Positions 23,442 through 51,011 of a stretch of 64,000 bases of DNA are shown one piece after another. Origin of the DNA: an uncultured Candidatus Saccharibacteria bacterium (GTDB lineage Bacteria > Patescibacteriota > Saccharimonadia > Saccharimonadales > Saccharimonadaceae); NCBI GenBank assembly GCA_937859515.1, contig CALMAK010000021.1:1-64000 (forward strand). Reading direction: 5' to 3'. Position 1 is the first letter of the stretch. The number at the start of each line of letters is the position of its first letter. A program made the translations under genes and the position numbers. The notes beneath the pieces were generated by a model that was not told where the DNA came from, did not search any database, and saw only the letters and a program-made list of their open reading frames with translations.

Positions 23442-23981
23442 ATGGCACTTTATCCACCCGAGCTCATCAATATCCTCAAAAATGGAGAAATTGCCATTAT
23501 TCGGACGGATACAATTTATGGCATTGTTGGTCGCGCCAACAATCAGGCAACGGTCGAACGTATCTTCCATATCAAAGGTCGTGCGCCAGAAAAGTCTCCG
23601 ATTATCCTAATTAGCGACCCATCAGAGATGCTCGACACCTACGATATACCTACGCTAAGAGCACTACAATCATATTGGCCGGGGCCGAATAGCATCATCC
23701 TCCCTAGCGAAAATGGACCAGCCTGGATCACGCGGGGCAATAAATCAATTGCTTATCGCTTGCCATCAGACACCGCACTGCAGGCGCTCATTCGTGAAGT
23801 TGGCCCGCTGGCGGCACCCAGTGCCAACCCAGAAGGCCTGCCACCCGCGGAGACAATTGAGCAAGCAAAGCAGTATTTTGGCGACGCTGTTGATTATTAC
23901 CATGACGGCGGAATCATCAACAACCTCGCACCATCCTCATTATTCCGTTATGACAACGACGCCTTCGTGCAATTACGATAA
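23442..23981 (+). CDS. Sua5/YciO/YrdC family threonylcarbamoyl-AMP synthase
   Basis: TsaC-type enzymes make threonylcarbamoyl-AMP from threonine, bicarbonate and ATP for the t6A37 modification of ANN-decoding tRNAs. The protein has 179 aa, the short TsaC form without the Sua5 C-terminal domain. Visible motifs are the N-terminal IIRTDTIYGIVGRA, KGRAPEKSPIILISD and GPLAAPSANPEG. The ATG follows the pepN stop after one base, so it is translationally coupled to pepN. A two-way terminator follows. The YciO side branch of this family cannot be excluded. Confidence 0.88.
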   Translation: MALYPPELINILKNGEIAIIRTDTIYGIVGRANNQATVERIFHIKGRAPEKSPIILISDPSEMLDTYDIPTLRALQSYWPGPNSIILPSENGPAWITRGNKSIAYRLPSDTALQALIREVGPLAAPSANPEGLPPAETIEQAKQYFGDAVDYYHDGGIINNLAPSSLFRYDNDAFVQLR

Positions 23982-23984
23982 AAA

Positions 23985-24009
23985 GAACTCCCTTTCAGGG
24001 AGCTATTGT
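23985..24009. terminator. bidirectional terminator between tsaC-like gene and GC-rich cassette
   Basis: CTCCC (23988-23992) pairs with GGGAG (23998-24002). On the minus strand the stem is followed by TTCTTTTT, a good terminator for the cassette transcript. The plus direction has a weaker U tract. Confidence 0.75.
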
Positions 24010-24021
24010 ATTCATTGAATG

Positions 24022-24037
24022 TAACAAGCTACAGAGA
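24022..24037 (+). repeat. left 16-bp inverted repeat of GC-rich cassette
   Basis: TAACAAGCTACAGAGA is the exact reverse complement of 24643-24658. The pair encloses the GC-rich gene with its leader and trailer, 637 bases from outer edge to outer edge. Confidence 0.95.
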
Positions 24038-24048
24038 GTGACCGGGCA

Positions 24049-24093
24049 TTCGCCCGCAGCAGAGCCTCAATGGATGAGGGTGCTGCGGGCGAA
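24049..24093 (-). terminator. strong GC hairpin after the cassette gene
   Basis: A 13-bp perfect stem (TTCGCCCGCAGCA at 24049-24061 with its complement at 24081-24093) has a second inner stem CCTCA/TGAGG. It follows the cassette gene stop by 9 bases. There is no U-run after it, so it is more likely a 3' stabilising structure than the terminator itself. Confidence 0.7.
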
Positions 24094-24102
24094 GCCGCAT
24101 GG

Positions 24103-24528
24103 TCAGCCGCGCGCCATCATGCTGGGGAACCCGGCCATGATGCCGCTGCCGTCGCCGAAGCCCGCCGGCATGAAGTCACCGGTGGCGGTGGCATCGGAGG
24201 CGCCACCGAACAGGGTCTCGAACAGCGGACCGAACTGAGCCGCCATGCGCTCGCCGGCCATCCGGCCAGCCTCCTGCATGAGCTCGTTGATCTGGGTCCG
24301 GATCTGCGCGATGGACAGATCGTAGTTGGCGATGTCGAGCTGCGCGTGCGCGAGGTTGCGCTTCAGGCGCGCCATCTCGACGAGGTCGCCATCGTCGGTC
24401 TTCGTCAGGTCGCAGATGCGGCCGTTCAGCGCGATGATGCGCTTCTCGACGCCGAGGATCAGCCCTTCGATGCCGTGGATCGCGATCTCCTTGTTGATGA
24501 TCTGGATCTTCAGGTCGGTGTTGCACAT
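24103..24528 (-). CDS. GC-rich orphan gene, coiled-coil protein of 141 aa
   Basis: I do not recognise this protein. It begins MCNTDLKIQIINKEIAIHGI and is mostly charged amphipathic helix (about residues 3-95). It ends in a flexible Gly/Met/Ala-rich tail (GFGDGSGIMAGFPSMMARG). There is no signal peptide or membrane helix. The start at 24526-24528 has GAAAGG 8 bases upstream; the frame extends further 5' but into the structured leader. Codon use is alien to the neighbours: every Ile codon is ATC, and 42 of 60 bases at 24241-24300 are G or C. The opposite strand is also open, but promoter, ribosome-binding site and terminator all favour the minus strand. It was possibly acquired from a GC-rich host. 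Confidence 0.75.
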   Translation of the reverse strand: MCNTDLKIQIINKEIAIHGIEGLILGVEKRIIALNGRICDLTKTDDGDLVEMARLKRNLAHAQLDIANYDLSIAQIRTQINELMQEAGRMAGERMAAQFGPLFETLFGGASDATATGDFMPAGFGDGSGIMAGFPSMMARG

Positions 24529-24679
24529 AGTGGCAACCTTTCTCCTTAGTCGGATGTGTCGAGCGGTCGCTCGGTGTGGCACACCCTAAAAGGGCACTCG
24601 GCACAACTTTTCGCTGTCATGCATACTGCCCCTTCAGGGTGTTCTCTGTAGCTTGTTAAGGGAGTGCTTTTGCACTCAT
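24529..24679 (-). promoter_or_regulatory. structured 5' leader of the GC-rich cassette
   Basis: The predicted mRNA starts near 24679 with the hairpin GAGTGC-AAAA-GCACTC, then carries the inverted repeat (24643-24658). Next come a long helix (ACACCCT..GGGCA with TGCCC..AGGGTGT) and the small hairpin CGAGCG/CGCTCG, then AAGGAGAAAGG before ATG. Such a long structured leader is exceptional in this mostly leaderless window. Confidence 0.65.
24643..24658 (-). repeat. right 16-bp inverted repeat of GC-rich cassette
   Basis: TCTCTGTAGCTTGTTA is the exact reverse complement of 24022-24037. It lies in the 5' leader, so the 5' and 3' ends of the mRNA could pair over 16 bp. Confidence 0.95.
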
Positions 24680-24685
24680 AGTTTA

Positions 24686-24713
24686 ATTATATCATTTATA
24701 TGTAATTAAGTCA
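24686..24713 (-). promoter_or_regulatory. consensus promoter TTGACT-17-TATAAT of GC-rich cassette
   Basis: On the minus strand TTGACT (24708-24713) and TATAAT (24686-24691) are 17 bases apart. The promoter begins 3 bases from the stop of the upstream RNase HII-YraN gene. The same -35 and -10 hexamers and spacing drive the second GC-rich gene at 49.5 kb. Confidence 0.85.
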
Positions 24714-24716
24714 ATA

Positions 24717-25769
24717 TTATTCTATTATTTTTATCCATCCTTCCAGTGCGAAATGCTTTCCTGTTACTGCTGCTGCCGCTAGTACCACACTACCGCCACC
24801 CAAGTGTCCCGACAAATATAATTCAACCGCGAATCTCATCTGACGCTGTTTTTTAGGAGTAATCGCCGTCAAACCATCACCATATTTGGCATTTTTACGA
24901 TATTTTACCTCCGTAAAATATATCGTATCGTCCTTTCGTGACACGATATCAATCTCGCAAAACTTCGTCCGCCAATTGCGTTCGATAACTTCGTGACCCT
25001 CGCCTCGTAGATACTCTGCAACAACATTTTCCGCCTTGTCACCAATAGATTTCGTCGTCGTGGCAGAGCCGTCTGCCGACGACACCTTTTTTGAGATCCT
25101 GCCCCTTTTAGGCTGAGCCGTGCGAGATTCCCGAGATTTATCTCGAGATTCTCGTGCGCTCACCGGGATCTCAGAAAAGCGTGTGTCGGCAGACGGCGAA
25201 CGTATAGTGGTATACTTCTGTAGCGGCGCAAAACTCAGCCGATGCTCGCCTATTACGCCGTGCTTCTCGATTGCCTCGCGATGCCTTGCTACACCATAAC
25301 CTGCGTGCGAACCGAATCCATACGTTGGATATTTCTCACCTAATTTCGTCATGTATCTATCTCGCTCGACCTTAGCGATAATCGACGCCGCACTGACGCT
25401 TGGTATCAGTAAATCTGCCTTTGGCATGGTCTGTACATATCTTCCCTTGCCTGTATCTATGAGAAAGTTAACCGTTCCATCTATAATAATCTCGCTATAC
25501 GGCACCGTAACCTGCTGTACCGCACGTCGCGAGGCCAACCGTAAGGCGGCACTCATACCAATCTCATCCAGCTCGCGTGCGCTCACCCAGCCACTGGCGT
25601 ATGCAACTGCCTTATTAGTAATTTCACTATACAGTGCCTCACGTTTTTTCTTGCTGAGTTTTTTACTATCCGTCAACCCCTCAATCTGGACGCCGCCTAG
25701 CACAACGGCACCAACCACCAACGGCCCTGCCCAGGGCCCACGACCCGCTTCATCTATTCCAAGAATCAT
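24717..25769 (-). CDS. rnhB: RNase HII fused to YraN (UPF0102) nuclease-like domain
   Basis: The N-terminal part (residues 1 to about 190) is ribonuclease HII, which removes ribonucleotides from DNA. It shows the catalytic start GIDEAGRGPWAGP and the blocks IIDGTVNF, KADLLIPSVSAASIIAKVERD and YGFGSHAGYGV. After a basic Ser/Arg/Lys linker (about 190-240), the C-terminal part (about 245-350) is a YraN/UPF0102 domain of the endonuclease-like fold (GDKAENVVAEYLRGEGHEVI, CEIDIVSRKDDTIYFTEVKY). rnhB and yraN are adjacent genes in many bacteria; here they form one 350-aa frame. The start at 25767-25769 lies 6 bases after TACAAT (leaderless). A 13-bp inverted repeat bounds the linker DNA. Confidence 0.92.
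   Translation of the reverse strand: MILGIDEAGRGPWAGPLVVGAVVLGGVQIEGLTDSKKLSKKKREALYSEITNKAVAYASGWVSARELDEIGMSAALRLASRRAVQQVTVPYSEIIIDGTVNFLIDTGKGRYVQTMPKADLLIPSVSAASIIAKVERDRYMTKLGEKYPTYGFGSHAGYGVARHREAIEKHGVIGEHRLSFAPLQKYTTIRSPSADTRFSEIPVSARESRDKSRESRTAQPKRGRISKKVSSADGSATTTKSIGDKAENVVAEYLRGEGHEVIERNWRTKFCEIDIVSRKDDTIYFTEVKYRKNAKYGDGLTAITPKKQRQMRFAVELYLSGHLGGGSVVLAAAAVTGKHFALEGWIKIIE
25068..25197. repeat. inverted-repeat-bounded segment encoding the RnhB-YraN linker
   Basis: GCCGTCTGCCGAC (25068-25080) and its exact reverse complement (25185-25197) bracket 104 bases that encode the low-complexity linker. Inside are further CGAGATT-type inverted motifs. It looks like a small in-frame inserted element, although only one copy is visible here. 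Confidence 0.6.
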
Positions 25770-25788
25770 ATCCTTATTGTACACAAAA

Positions 25789-25806
25789 GCGCCCCAATCG
25801 GGGCGC
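25789..25806 (-). terminator. intrinsic terminator of the small membrane-protein gene
   Basis: GCGCCCC and GGGGCGC form a 7-bp stem with a 4-base loop, followed on the minus strand by TTTT. It lies just upstream of the TACAAT box of the RNase HII gene. Confidence 0.85.
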
Positions 25807-25825
25807 CAAGTATGCAAGTATATCA

Positions 25826-26443
25826 CTATACCTTAGAAACAGATACAATCTTAAATGTTGCAGTTTTTAACGACTCATACTTATCACTCTGAACAAGTGT
25901 GAATGCCTCAAAATCTTGCGATTGCCCTGCATTTAAGTCGTTCGCGTAAATTGTGTCATCGGCTAAGCGCTTACCGTCTGCATCAACTGCCTCAATCTGA
26001 ATGCTAAATGACTTCTTTTTACTCATCTTGTTATTTACACTAACCACTAATTTTGAGCTTTGCAACCCATATTCACTTTCAATAACCTCAAATTGGCCTA
26101 GGTCAACTTGAACATCATTCTTAAGAATATCTTCTGTGTTATTGCCTGACATATCGTCAGCTGTTTTACTGATCTCATCACCGACTTTTTCTAATGCATC
26201 ACCGACTGATTTCTGCATCGCAAGCGTAGTTCCCATTGAGGCGACTGCCAGCACAAACGCAGCTACCGCTGTTGCAATACTCTTCTTTTTTACTAGCGCA
26301 ACGATTGCAAATATTAACGCAAGTGCGCCAAGTACGAATGCCGCATTATTAATAATTGGGATAAATGATAGTACAACACCAATAATACCCAACACCAGGG
26401 CAGCTGTTGCAAACCCGCTCTTACTGTTTATATCCTTACCCAT
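25826..26443 (-). CDS. DUF4190-like small membrane protein with C-terminal DUF4352-like domain
   Basis: This 205-aa protein has two closely spaced hydrophobic helices (about residues 10-70, ALVLGIIGVVLSF.. and LGALALIFAIVALVKKK). A third short helix follows (about 73-90), then an extracytoplasmic beta-rich domain (about 115-205) resembling DUF4352/Ig-like lipoproteins. The function is unknown; such proteins are common surface components. The start at 26441-26443 is chosen because GGAGGGA lies 8 bases upstream. The frame extends to 26551, but that part overlaps a structured RNA with a terminator. It lies directly behind that RNA and may be controlled by it. Confidence 0.75.
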   Translation of the reverse strand: MGKDINSKSGFATAALVLGIIGVVLSFIPIINNAAFVLGALALIFAIVALVKKKSIATAVAAFVLAVASMGTTLAMQKSVGDALEKVGDEISKTADDMSGNNTEDILKNDVQVDLGQFEVIESEYGLQSSKLVVSVNNKMSKKKSFSIQIEAVDADGKRLADDTIYANDLNAGQSQDFEAFTLVQSDKYESLKTATFKIVSVSKV

Positions 26444-49463: not shown

Positions 49464-49480
49464 GTTGTCGTGACTGTATA

Positions 49481-49509
49481 TTGACTTTTTCTATCTCATA
49501 TGCTATAAT
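49481..49509 (+). promoter_or_regulatory. consensus promoter TTGACT-17-TATAAT of the second GC-rich gene
   Basis: TTGACT (49481-49486) and TATAAT (49504-49509) are exactly 17 bases apart, matching the hexamers and spacing of the cassette promoter at 24.7 kb. The leader then carries a GAGGTG/CACCTC hairpin just before the ribosome-binding site. Confidence 0.85.
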
Positions 49510-49579
49510 AATTAAAGCTTAGGCTACCTCTTGCCAAAAAACAATCGAGGTGTCAAAGCGCACCTCAGGAAAGGAAGTC

Positions 49580-49939
49580 ATGAAGGCCCTCGCCATCATC
49601 GGCGCAGCATTCCATGTCGTGGTCAGTCTGATCGTCGCGATCGCTGCTCCAGTGACTTTTGAGGGCTACACCACCCTCATCGTCGCAGTGATCTTCACTC
49701 AGCTGCTGACGGCAGCAGTCGGCATCATCGCCATCATCCTCATCAAGACGCGAAAGTGGACAGCCCTACTGTGGCTTCTCGGCTTCAGCACTACCTACAG
49801 TCTCATTGATGTCGGATGGCGCGCCGGAAACGGTTTCGACCCGTCGGTCGTGCTGGTTATGGTGCTGTTGTACCTATGGCAGCTGTTCGGCATCGTCACG
49901 GCCATTCGTGGTCGCAATACCACCGTTCGTACTTCCTGA
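49580..49939 (+). CDS. GC-rich orphan gene, four-helix membrane protein of 119 aa
   Basis: I do not recognise the family. The protein is almost entirely hydrophobic, with about four membrane helices (residues 2-25, 30-57, 60-80, 90-112) and a short Arg/Thr-rich tail (RGRNTTVRTS). AGGAAAGGAAG lies 3-13 bases before the ATG at 49580; the frame is open further upstream but that part forms the leader hairpin. Codon choice is GC-ending (nearly all Ile are ATC; 35 of 60 bases at 49681-49740 are G or C), unlike its neighbours. It has its own consensus promoter and GC-rich terminator and lies between the rpiB operon and gapA. Confidence 0.75.
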   Translation: MKALAIIGAAFHVVVSLIVAIAAPVTFEGYTTLIVAVIFTQLLTAAVGIIAIILIKTRKWTALLWLLGFSTTYSLIDVGWRAGNGFDPSVVLVMVLLYLWQLFGIVTAIRGRNTTVRTS

Positions 49940-49944
49940 GGAAA

Positions 49945-49967
49945 GGGCGGGCCACATCGGCCCGCCC
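49945..49967 (+). terminator. GC-rich hairpin after the second GC-rich gene
   Basis: GGGCGGGCC and GGCCCGCCC form a perfect 9-bp stem with a 5-base loop, 5 bases after the stop. There is no U-run. A further CCCAC/GTGGG hairpin followed by TTATTTTATT (about 49981-50007) may complete termination in the plus direction. Confidence 0.75.
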
Positions 49968-49997
49968 CAACTCATTGCACCCCACCATGTACGTGGG

Positions 49998-51011
49998 TTA
50001 TTTTATTGCCTTGGCAACATCGGCTGTCAACTCAACAAGTCGATTACTGTAGCCCCATTCGTTGTCATACCAGACGGCGATCTTAATTAAGTTTCCGCCA
50101 ACTACCTTTGTCAGGAGTAGATCAACCACGCCAGAATGGCTATTGCCGATGTAGTCACGACTGACCAGCGGCTCTTCGCTCACACCTAAGATTCCTTGGT
50201 AAAAAGAATCTGCAGCCGCTTTTTTAAATACATTATTCACTTCTTCAACCGTAACATCACGTGACAATAGTGCCGTAACATCACTAATTGAAACCACAGG
50301 GGTTGGAACACGAATTGACAGCCCATCGAACTTACCCTCAAGCTGCGGCAGTGTCTTTGTTACGGCAATTGCAGCACCAGTTGTTGTCGGCACCATATTC
50401 TCAGCCGCATTACGCCCTTCACGGAGATCGCCTTTTGGCGCATCTTGCAAGGCTTGGCTCGCGGTGTAGCTATGAACGGTTGTTAAAAGCGACTTTTCAA
50501 CACCAAATTCAGCATCAAGTACCGCCATCACCGCAGCAAGACTATTGGTTGTACAGCTAGCGTTGCTAATTACTTCTGTTGCACTGCCAATTTTATCTTC
50601 ATTCGCGCCCAATACAATCGTATCAACGCCATCACTCTTCGTCGGACCACTAATGACCACACGCTTGGCACCAGCTGTAATGTGCTTTGACGCGCCCTCT
50701 TTATCAGTAAAGAACCCTGTTGACTCGATCACAATATCAACACCACGATCCGCCCACGGCAAGGCGCTTGGGTCGCGTTCAGCGAGCACCTCAATATGTC
50801 TGCCGTTAACGATAATGCCCTTCTCGTCATGTGACACCTCATGCTGATAGGTGCCATAATTGCTATCTCTCTTCAACAGATATGCCAGTGTTTTCGTGTC
50901 CGTCAGGTCATTAATTGCTACAATTTCAAGATCATCTCGCTCAAAAGCGATCTTGAAAGCATTGCGTCCAATGCGACCAAATCCATTGATGGCAAGTTTT
51001 GTTTGACTCAT
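49998..51011 (-). CDS. gap: glyceraldehyde-3-phosphate dehydrogenase
   Basis: GAPDH oxidises glyceraldehyde-3-phosphate to 1,3-bisphosphoglycerate with NAD(P). The protein has 337 aa: a Rossmann start AINGFGRIGRNAFKIA and the catalytic Cys153 in ISNASCTTNSLAA. The cofactor-loop residue after the second strand is VAINDLTD, and the Asp favours NAD. AGGAG lies 6 bases before ATG and a TATACT promoter at 51053-51058 gives a leader of about 35 bases. It is the glycolytic outlet of the adjacent operon but is transcribed separately. Confidence 0.97.
   Translation of the reverse strand: MSQTKLAINGFGRIGRNAFKIAFERDDLEIVAINDLTDTKTLAYLLKRDSNYGTYQHEVSHDEKGIIVNGRHIEVLAERDPSALPWADRGVDIVIESTGFFTDKEGASKHITAGAKRVVISGPTKSDGVDTIVLGANEDKIGSATEVISNASCTTNSLAAVMAVLDAEFGVEKSLLTTVHSYTASQALQDAPKGDLREGRNAAENMVPTTTGAAIAVTKTLPQLEGKFDGLSIRVPTPVVSISDVTALLSRDVTVEEVNNVFKKAAADSFYQGILGVSEEPLVSRDYIGNSHSGVVDLLLTKVVGGNLIKIAVWYDNEWGYSNRLVELTADVAKAIK

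Follow-up and report, generated by a model that had tools for sequence, protein, structure and literature searches.

Complementary leader and trailer arms suggest a class of panhandle mRNAs among GC-rich genes of a Saccharibacterium

Within the 64,000-nt window analysed here, taken from a 907-kb, 34-contig Saccharibacterium genome (G000; 47% G+C), a single GC-rich gene lies between two 16-bp segments, 24022-24037 and 24643-24658, that are exact reverse complements. The question raised by this locus is whether such a repeat marks the ends of a piece of DNA or the ends of a message. Both possibilities had been put forward in a first-pass annotation of the sequence. The parts of the locus are listed below in the order of transcription; G028 denotes a genome from another genus of the same family.

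24709-24714, minus strand: -35 box TTGACT, read directly; in the G028 homologue TATTGACTTA is spaced almost equally from the arm
24686-24691, minus strand: -10 box TATAAT, read directly, with a spacer of 17 nt
24662-24677, minus strand: 5'-end hairpin GAGTGC-AAAA-GCACTC, directly 3' of the predicted start site
24643-24658, minus strand: 5' arm of the putative panhandle, UAACAAGCUACAGAGA in the mRNA, a perfect complement of 24022-24037
24581-24642, minus strand: long leader hairpin (leader fold z = -6.6)
24542-24547, minus strand: Shine-Dalgarno sequence AAGGAG, read directly, outside the panhandle arm
24103-24528, minus strand: open reading frame (ORF) of 141 aa, encoding P0001
24049-24093, minus strand: 3' hairpin after the stop codon, with perfect 13-bp arms at 24049-24061 and 24081-24093; a GC-rich hairpin occupies the equivalent position in G028
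24022-24037, minus strand: 3' arm of the putative panhandle, UCUCUGUAGCUUGUUA in the mRNA
about 23981-24004, minus strand: terminator-like hairpin and U-run, common to the convergent Sua5-like gene

As read from the sequence, these are the parts of one transcription unit: promoter, 5' hairpin, leader, ORF, 3' hairpin and terminator. The exact repeat, the TTGACT-17-TATAAT promoter, the structured leader, the 13-bp 3' hairpin and a terminator outside the repeats had all been annotated and were recovered at their places. The arm at 24643-24658 was predicted to be paired with a probability of 0.98, in agreement with the proposal that the mRNA ends can pair over 16 bp, and the arms are kept in G028. 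Segments 23981-23994 and 24658-24671 are complementary at 13 of 14 positions, a possible outward extension of the panhandle that would compete with the 5' hairpin and the terminator. At 24717-25826 an RNase HII is fused to what by eye resembles a YraN/UPF0102 nuclease-like domain, as it is in G001, a genome of the same genus.

The alien composition ascribed to the gene was borne out. Its GC3 is 0.936, compared with 0.448 +/- 0.053 for the remaining genes of the window, isoleucine is encoded by ATC in 15 of 15 codons, and G+C amounts to 42/60 at 24241-24300 against 30/60 at 23881-23940. Folding of the whole transcript gave a z score of -11 (-8.3 for the G028 homologue). Compared with its own synonymous shuffles, the ORF was not more folded (z -0.46), so the exceptional fold of the transcript must owe much to its untranslated parts. 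P0001 was predicted to form a two-helix hairpin (residues 2-43 and 49-107) with a disordered Gly/Met tail, at a mean pLDDT of 74 and above 90 in the helix cores. Nothing convincing was retrieved from Pfam, PHROGs or PDB sequences, consistent with the coiled coil of no recognised family described before. In a fold search the best E value was 0.11 and the matches were helical hairpins of a generic kind, PspA and CHMP among them; no transmembrane (TM) segment was predicted. From the model, we would guess at a self- or membrane-associating two-helix protein. No Rfam family reached its gathering score on the unit.

Taken alone, a 16-bp repeat is only moderately surprising genome-wide. Under a Markov null for the whole 907-kb genome, with spacings of 250-1500, the expectation is about one perfect inverted repeat at a length of 15 bp and 0.3 at 17 bp. 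The genome has ten repeats that are 14 bp or longer; both arms are intergenic for P0001 and for a PlsC-like gene, and a third repeat (C11:12069/12546) flanks a GC-rich gene with its arms inside doubtful ORFs. A chance origin of the P0001 arms nevertheless appears unlikely, because the homologue in G028 carries the same arms. That genome encodes a 142-aa relative of P0001 (35% identical, E 6e-7) which shares the M-x-N-T start, has a GC3 of 0.94 in its ORF and lies at a different, unrelated genomic site (L182). The order of parts matches that in the window: TATTGACTTA promoter, hairpin, CGACAAGCTACAGA, leader, ORF, hairpin and TCTGTAGCTTGTCG. The 5' hairpin is of other sequence (TGACAGCTTGCTGTCA) at the equivalent position, and the leader forms a comparable long hairpin from a different sequence. 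The arms ACAAGCTACAGA/TCTGTAGCTTGT are invariant between the two genomes and their register differs by at most 4 nt (-130/+65 in G000, -126/+61 in G028). Around an unchanged 12-nt core, two flanking pairs co-vary (T-A to C-G and A-T to G-C), and both panhandles were predicted to pair with a probability of 0.96-0.98.

The P0001 gene was present in 2 of 394 family genomes, and the 12-mer arm core was found paired in the same two, G000 and G028, only. In G001 the site is empty, the stop codons of the Sua5-like and RNase HII genes lying about 15 bp apart. Pattern scans combining promoter and arm retrieved exact paired arms at the matching distance in G028 L182 only; viral matches lacked them. P0001 homologues were absent from GTDB genome contigs, viral contigs, and phage and plasmid records. 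This patchy presence fits a gene that comes and goes by gain and loss, and no sign of a mechanism for transposition was seen.

A genome scan placed the gene in a larger set. About 29 GC-rich genes, selected on composition (GC) and not on pairing and with class list and start codons curated by hand, occupy scattered single-gene islands, with a mean GC3 of 0.79 against 0.46 for native genes. In the parts of the related genomes that were covered, counterparts of the class were found in G001 and G028, and no such class was seen in the 212 kb sampled from G002. Compared with native genes, the class has stronger promoters (p 5.5e-4), stronger Shine-Dalgarno sites (p 1e-4) and a stronger 3' stem (p 8e-9). 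Coding sequences were more folded than their synonymous shuffles, with a mean z of -2.21 (n=22) compared with -0.70 for native genes (n=60; p 6.5e-6); for Arthrobacter plasmid genes z was -0.25 (n=14). The members include PlsC-, CdsA- and PgsA-like enzymes, an SPFH protein, a GNAT enzyme, a protein with an LAQTG sorting signal and, by curated reading, three lipobox proteins. No report of such a class was found in the open-access papers searched. A second member lies in the window:

49470-50000, plus strand: region of the gene, with the coding sequence at 49580-49939 (119 aa, four predicted TM segments, GC3 0.71 with the longer start)

This gene also has a TTGACT-17-TATAAT promoter, together with a hairpin at 49945-49967 and a 9-bp CCTCAGGAA/TTCCTGAGG match between 49563-49571 and 49933-49941.

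Pairing of leader and trailer extends beyond P0001. In 80/80-nt windows the longest leader/trailer complementarity of the class was 7.36, compared with 5.97 +/- 0.19 when trailers were exchanged among class genes; native genes (n=186) lacked the excess (6.02 vs 6.07 permuted). Following removal of P0001, and with 150/110-nt windows, the values were 7.70 and 6.76 +/- 0.20 (p 5e-5). The excess was also obtained in G028 (p 0.0005; 0.006 without the P0001 homologue) and, weakly, in G001 (p 0.02). Complementarity of at least 9 nt was limited to about 8 of the 29 class genes of G000. Predicted pairing probabilities reached 0.96-1.00 in 10 of 13 units (both P0001, both PlsC-like and both zinc-ribbon units, C18:109253, C11:69800, C21:252369 and L273), were 0.73 and 0.82 in two, and fell to 0.00 for the match of C18:63805.

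A repeat scan blind to GC content likewise found that long gene-flanking repeats surround GC-rich genes: in G000 P0001, the PlsC-like gene and, at the third repeat mentioned above, a 57-aa zinc-ribbon-like gene; in G001 the PlsC-like and zinc-ribbon-like repeats again; and in G028 the P0001 relative, together with a membrane protein of 75 aa whose arms measure 16 bp. The GC-rich zinc-ribbon-like gene adjoins the PlsC-like panhandle gene (L196:12069-12559, L267:5798-6250); its 14-bp arms GACAAGAGATAGTG are identical in G000 and G001, and the leader between the arms has diverged. Between the PlsC-like orthologues a leader T>C is matched by a trailer A>G, and between C21:252369 and its G001 counterpart a leader G>A is matched by a trailer C>T. 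In the latter pair (L247:8230-8900, L252:17075-17750) the proteins are 26% identical and the untranslated regions nearly identical. The arm of C21:252369 takes in the Shine-Dalgarno site (GACAAGGAGGA), with which the trailer is predicted to be able to pair. ACAAG is present in the 5' arm in four of the nine families; with leader segments drawn at random, some 5-mer would be shared this widely with a chance of 0.0045, which hints at a binding factor in common.

The age of the GC-richness was assessed from synonymous sites in three orthologue pairs. Native orthologues of G000 and G001 (183 genes) are identical at 42% of four-fold sites, with a GC3 of 0.46/0.51; the PlsC-like pair is identical at 32%, with a GC3 of 0.70/0.65. 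Because in the three pairs synonymous sites have turned over and GC3 stays high, the GC-richness of the class looks maintained rather than a relic of recent transfer. An Arthrobacter codon match was considered for the class and was not clean: among GC-ending codons the C:G preference correlated with that of native genes at r 0.81, compared with 0.42 for one Arthrobacter plasmid.

The reading that we consider probable, if not secure, is that the two halves of the inverted repeat pair to form a panhandle in the mRNA, and that P0001 belongs to a class of panhandle mRNAs in which sealing of the ends would protect the message or control its translation. Under the reading as a mobile one-gene cassette, the arms would be terminal inverted repeats. 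The patchy distribution, the other locus in G028 and the empty site in G001 agree with it; of the proposed search for empty sites and further copies, the former was thus successful, while no second copy of the unit was found in the G000 genome. Target duplications beside the arms were likewise not found, the sister genes have different arms, and among the 394 genomes the arm core is paired only in the two P0001 units. Terminal repeats of a MITE or IS-like element would bound whatever is conserved. Here the promoter and first hairpin, which lie outside the repeats, are retained in G028 as well, so the arms do not terminate a DNA element; the proposed mobile-unit termini find no support, and this reading is highly improbable. 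Recent transfer of the ordinary kind, from a donor rich in GC and with incidental repeats, was judged very slightly less credible again. The GC3 of 0.94, the lack of database relatives and the patchy distribution speak for it. As a general account the recent acquisition first suggested fails on the arms conserved in the homologue, the class-wide complementarity, the GC3 kept in three orthologue pairs despite turned-over synonymous sites and a folding of coding sequences unlike that of Arthrobacter genes; at the level of the class it is largely refuted. The poorest prospect of all was given to a hok-like toxin or regulator inhibited by fold-back of its own 3' end. The fold-back design of the mRNA recalls hok, and the arm of C21:252369 takes in the Shine-Dalgarno site; in P0001, however, that site is left free by an arm 115-130 nt ahead of the start, and the 141-aa protein is a predicted helical hairpin without a TM segment.

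A different destination for the messages was judged doubtful, though less so than these: they might be exported, for example by the Saccharibacterial type IV secretion system (T4SS), to a GC-rich host that translates them. GC-ending codons, strong Shine-Dalgarno sites, protected ends and host-type proteins would all be accounted for. To our knowledge, however, no route for mRNA export has been described. In its favour are the persistence of a high GC3 across species in those class pairs that were tested, the PlsC-, CdsA- and PgsA-like phospholipid enzymes and the three lipobox proteins. Neither Lgt nor LspA was detected in G000, G001 or G028, a weak negative for Lgt, as its control missed B. 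subtilis. Of two CdsA-like genes (L215:11569-12291, G000:C14:53641-54324), one is GC-rich (GC3 0.64) and one has native codons (0.48), and a native SPFH relative is present in addition to the class SPFH protein. The Saccharibacterial T4SS has been speculated to deliver effectors (PMC11665869), lipid droplets form in the host of a cultured relative (PMC10939385), and activated-sludge Saccharimonadia have been described as incapable of de novo phospholipid synthesis (PMC12592800). Against export stand a C:G preference that tracks native genes more closely than the Arthrobacter plasmid, a lipobox-like protein with native codons (C18:33070) and the sampled part of G002, in which such a class was not seen. 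Sortases are present, which ruled out sortase as a missing factor and also counts against this reading. A fuller version, a gene cohort written for another cell whose panhandle-protected, GC-coded mRNAs, some for phospholipid enzymes and lipoproteins, are delivered to and translated by the host, seems a touch more doubtful. The panhandle with its ACAAG/CUUGU element (four of nine families) may then be an export or protection tag.

For the panhandle reading a mechanism can be sketched. Decay that depends on the 5' end is hindered when that end is base-paired, and a 3' stem hinders exonucleases. A closed panhandle would keep 5'-end-dependent RNases away from one terminus and exonucleases away from the other; the messages would be compact and long-lived, and their GC-ending codons would serve the fold. 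RNase III could instead cleave a 16-bp panhandle and destabilise the message. In tmRNA and RNase P RNA one stem seals the 5' and 3' ends, as is predicted for P0001 mRNA; the latter differs in being a messenger with a 141-codon ORF and no Rfam match above threshold. The hok/pnd mRNAs are stable, with long-range 5'/3' pairing and fold-back inhibition. Long-range pairing is predicted for P0001 mRNA too, which lacks a toxin-like TM peptide and a pairing that blocks the Shine-Dalgarno site, and its codon composition is one found only in its class. Closest at hand is icaR mRNA of Staphylococcus aureus, the 3'-UTR of which pairs over a long distance with its own 5' leader, a UCCCCUG motif covering the Shine-Dalgarno site and RNase III cutting the RNA (PMC3868564). 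The P0001 trailer is likewise predicted to pair with its own leader, but through 16-bp arms far from the Shine-Dalgarno site (-130 to -115), and unrelated GC-rich genes share the design. In C21:252369 pairing of the icaR type is predicted, and because the arm includes the Shine-Dalgarno sequence, the trailer likely also gates translation there, as in icaR.

Individual bacterial mRNAs with end-to-end pairing are known in a few instances; in this genome the design recurs over unrelated genes and is coupled with GC-ending codons that persist at 47% G+C. The scattered GC-rich gene set points to a class of protected bacterial messengers not recognised before, which in an epibiont would serve as stored or persistent messages for host contact. 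The class offers a testable handle on how a gene-poor epibiont keeps, times or possibly ships its messages, and a computable signature for host-interaction genes in Patescibacteria.
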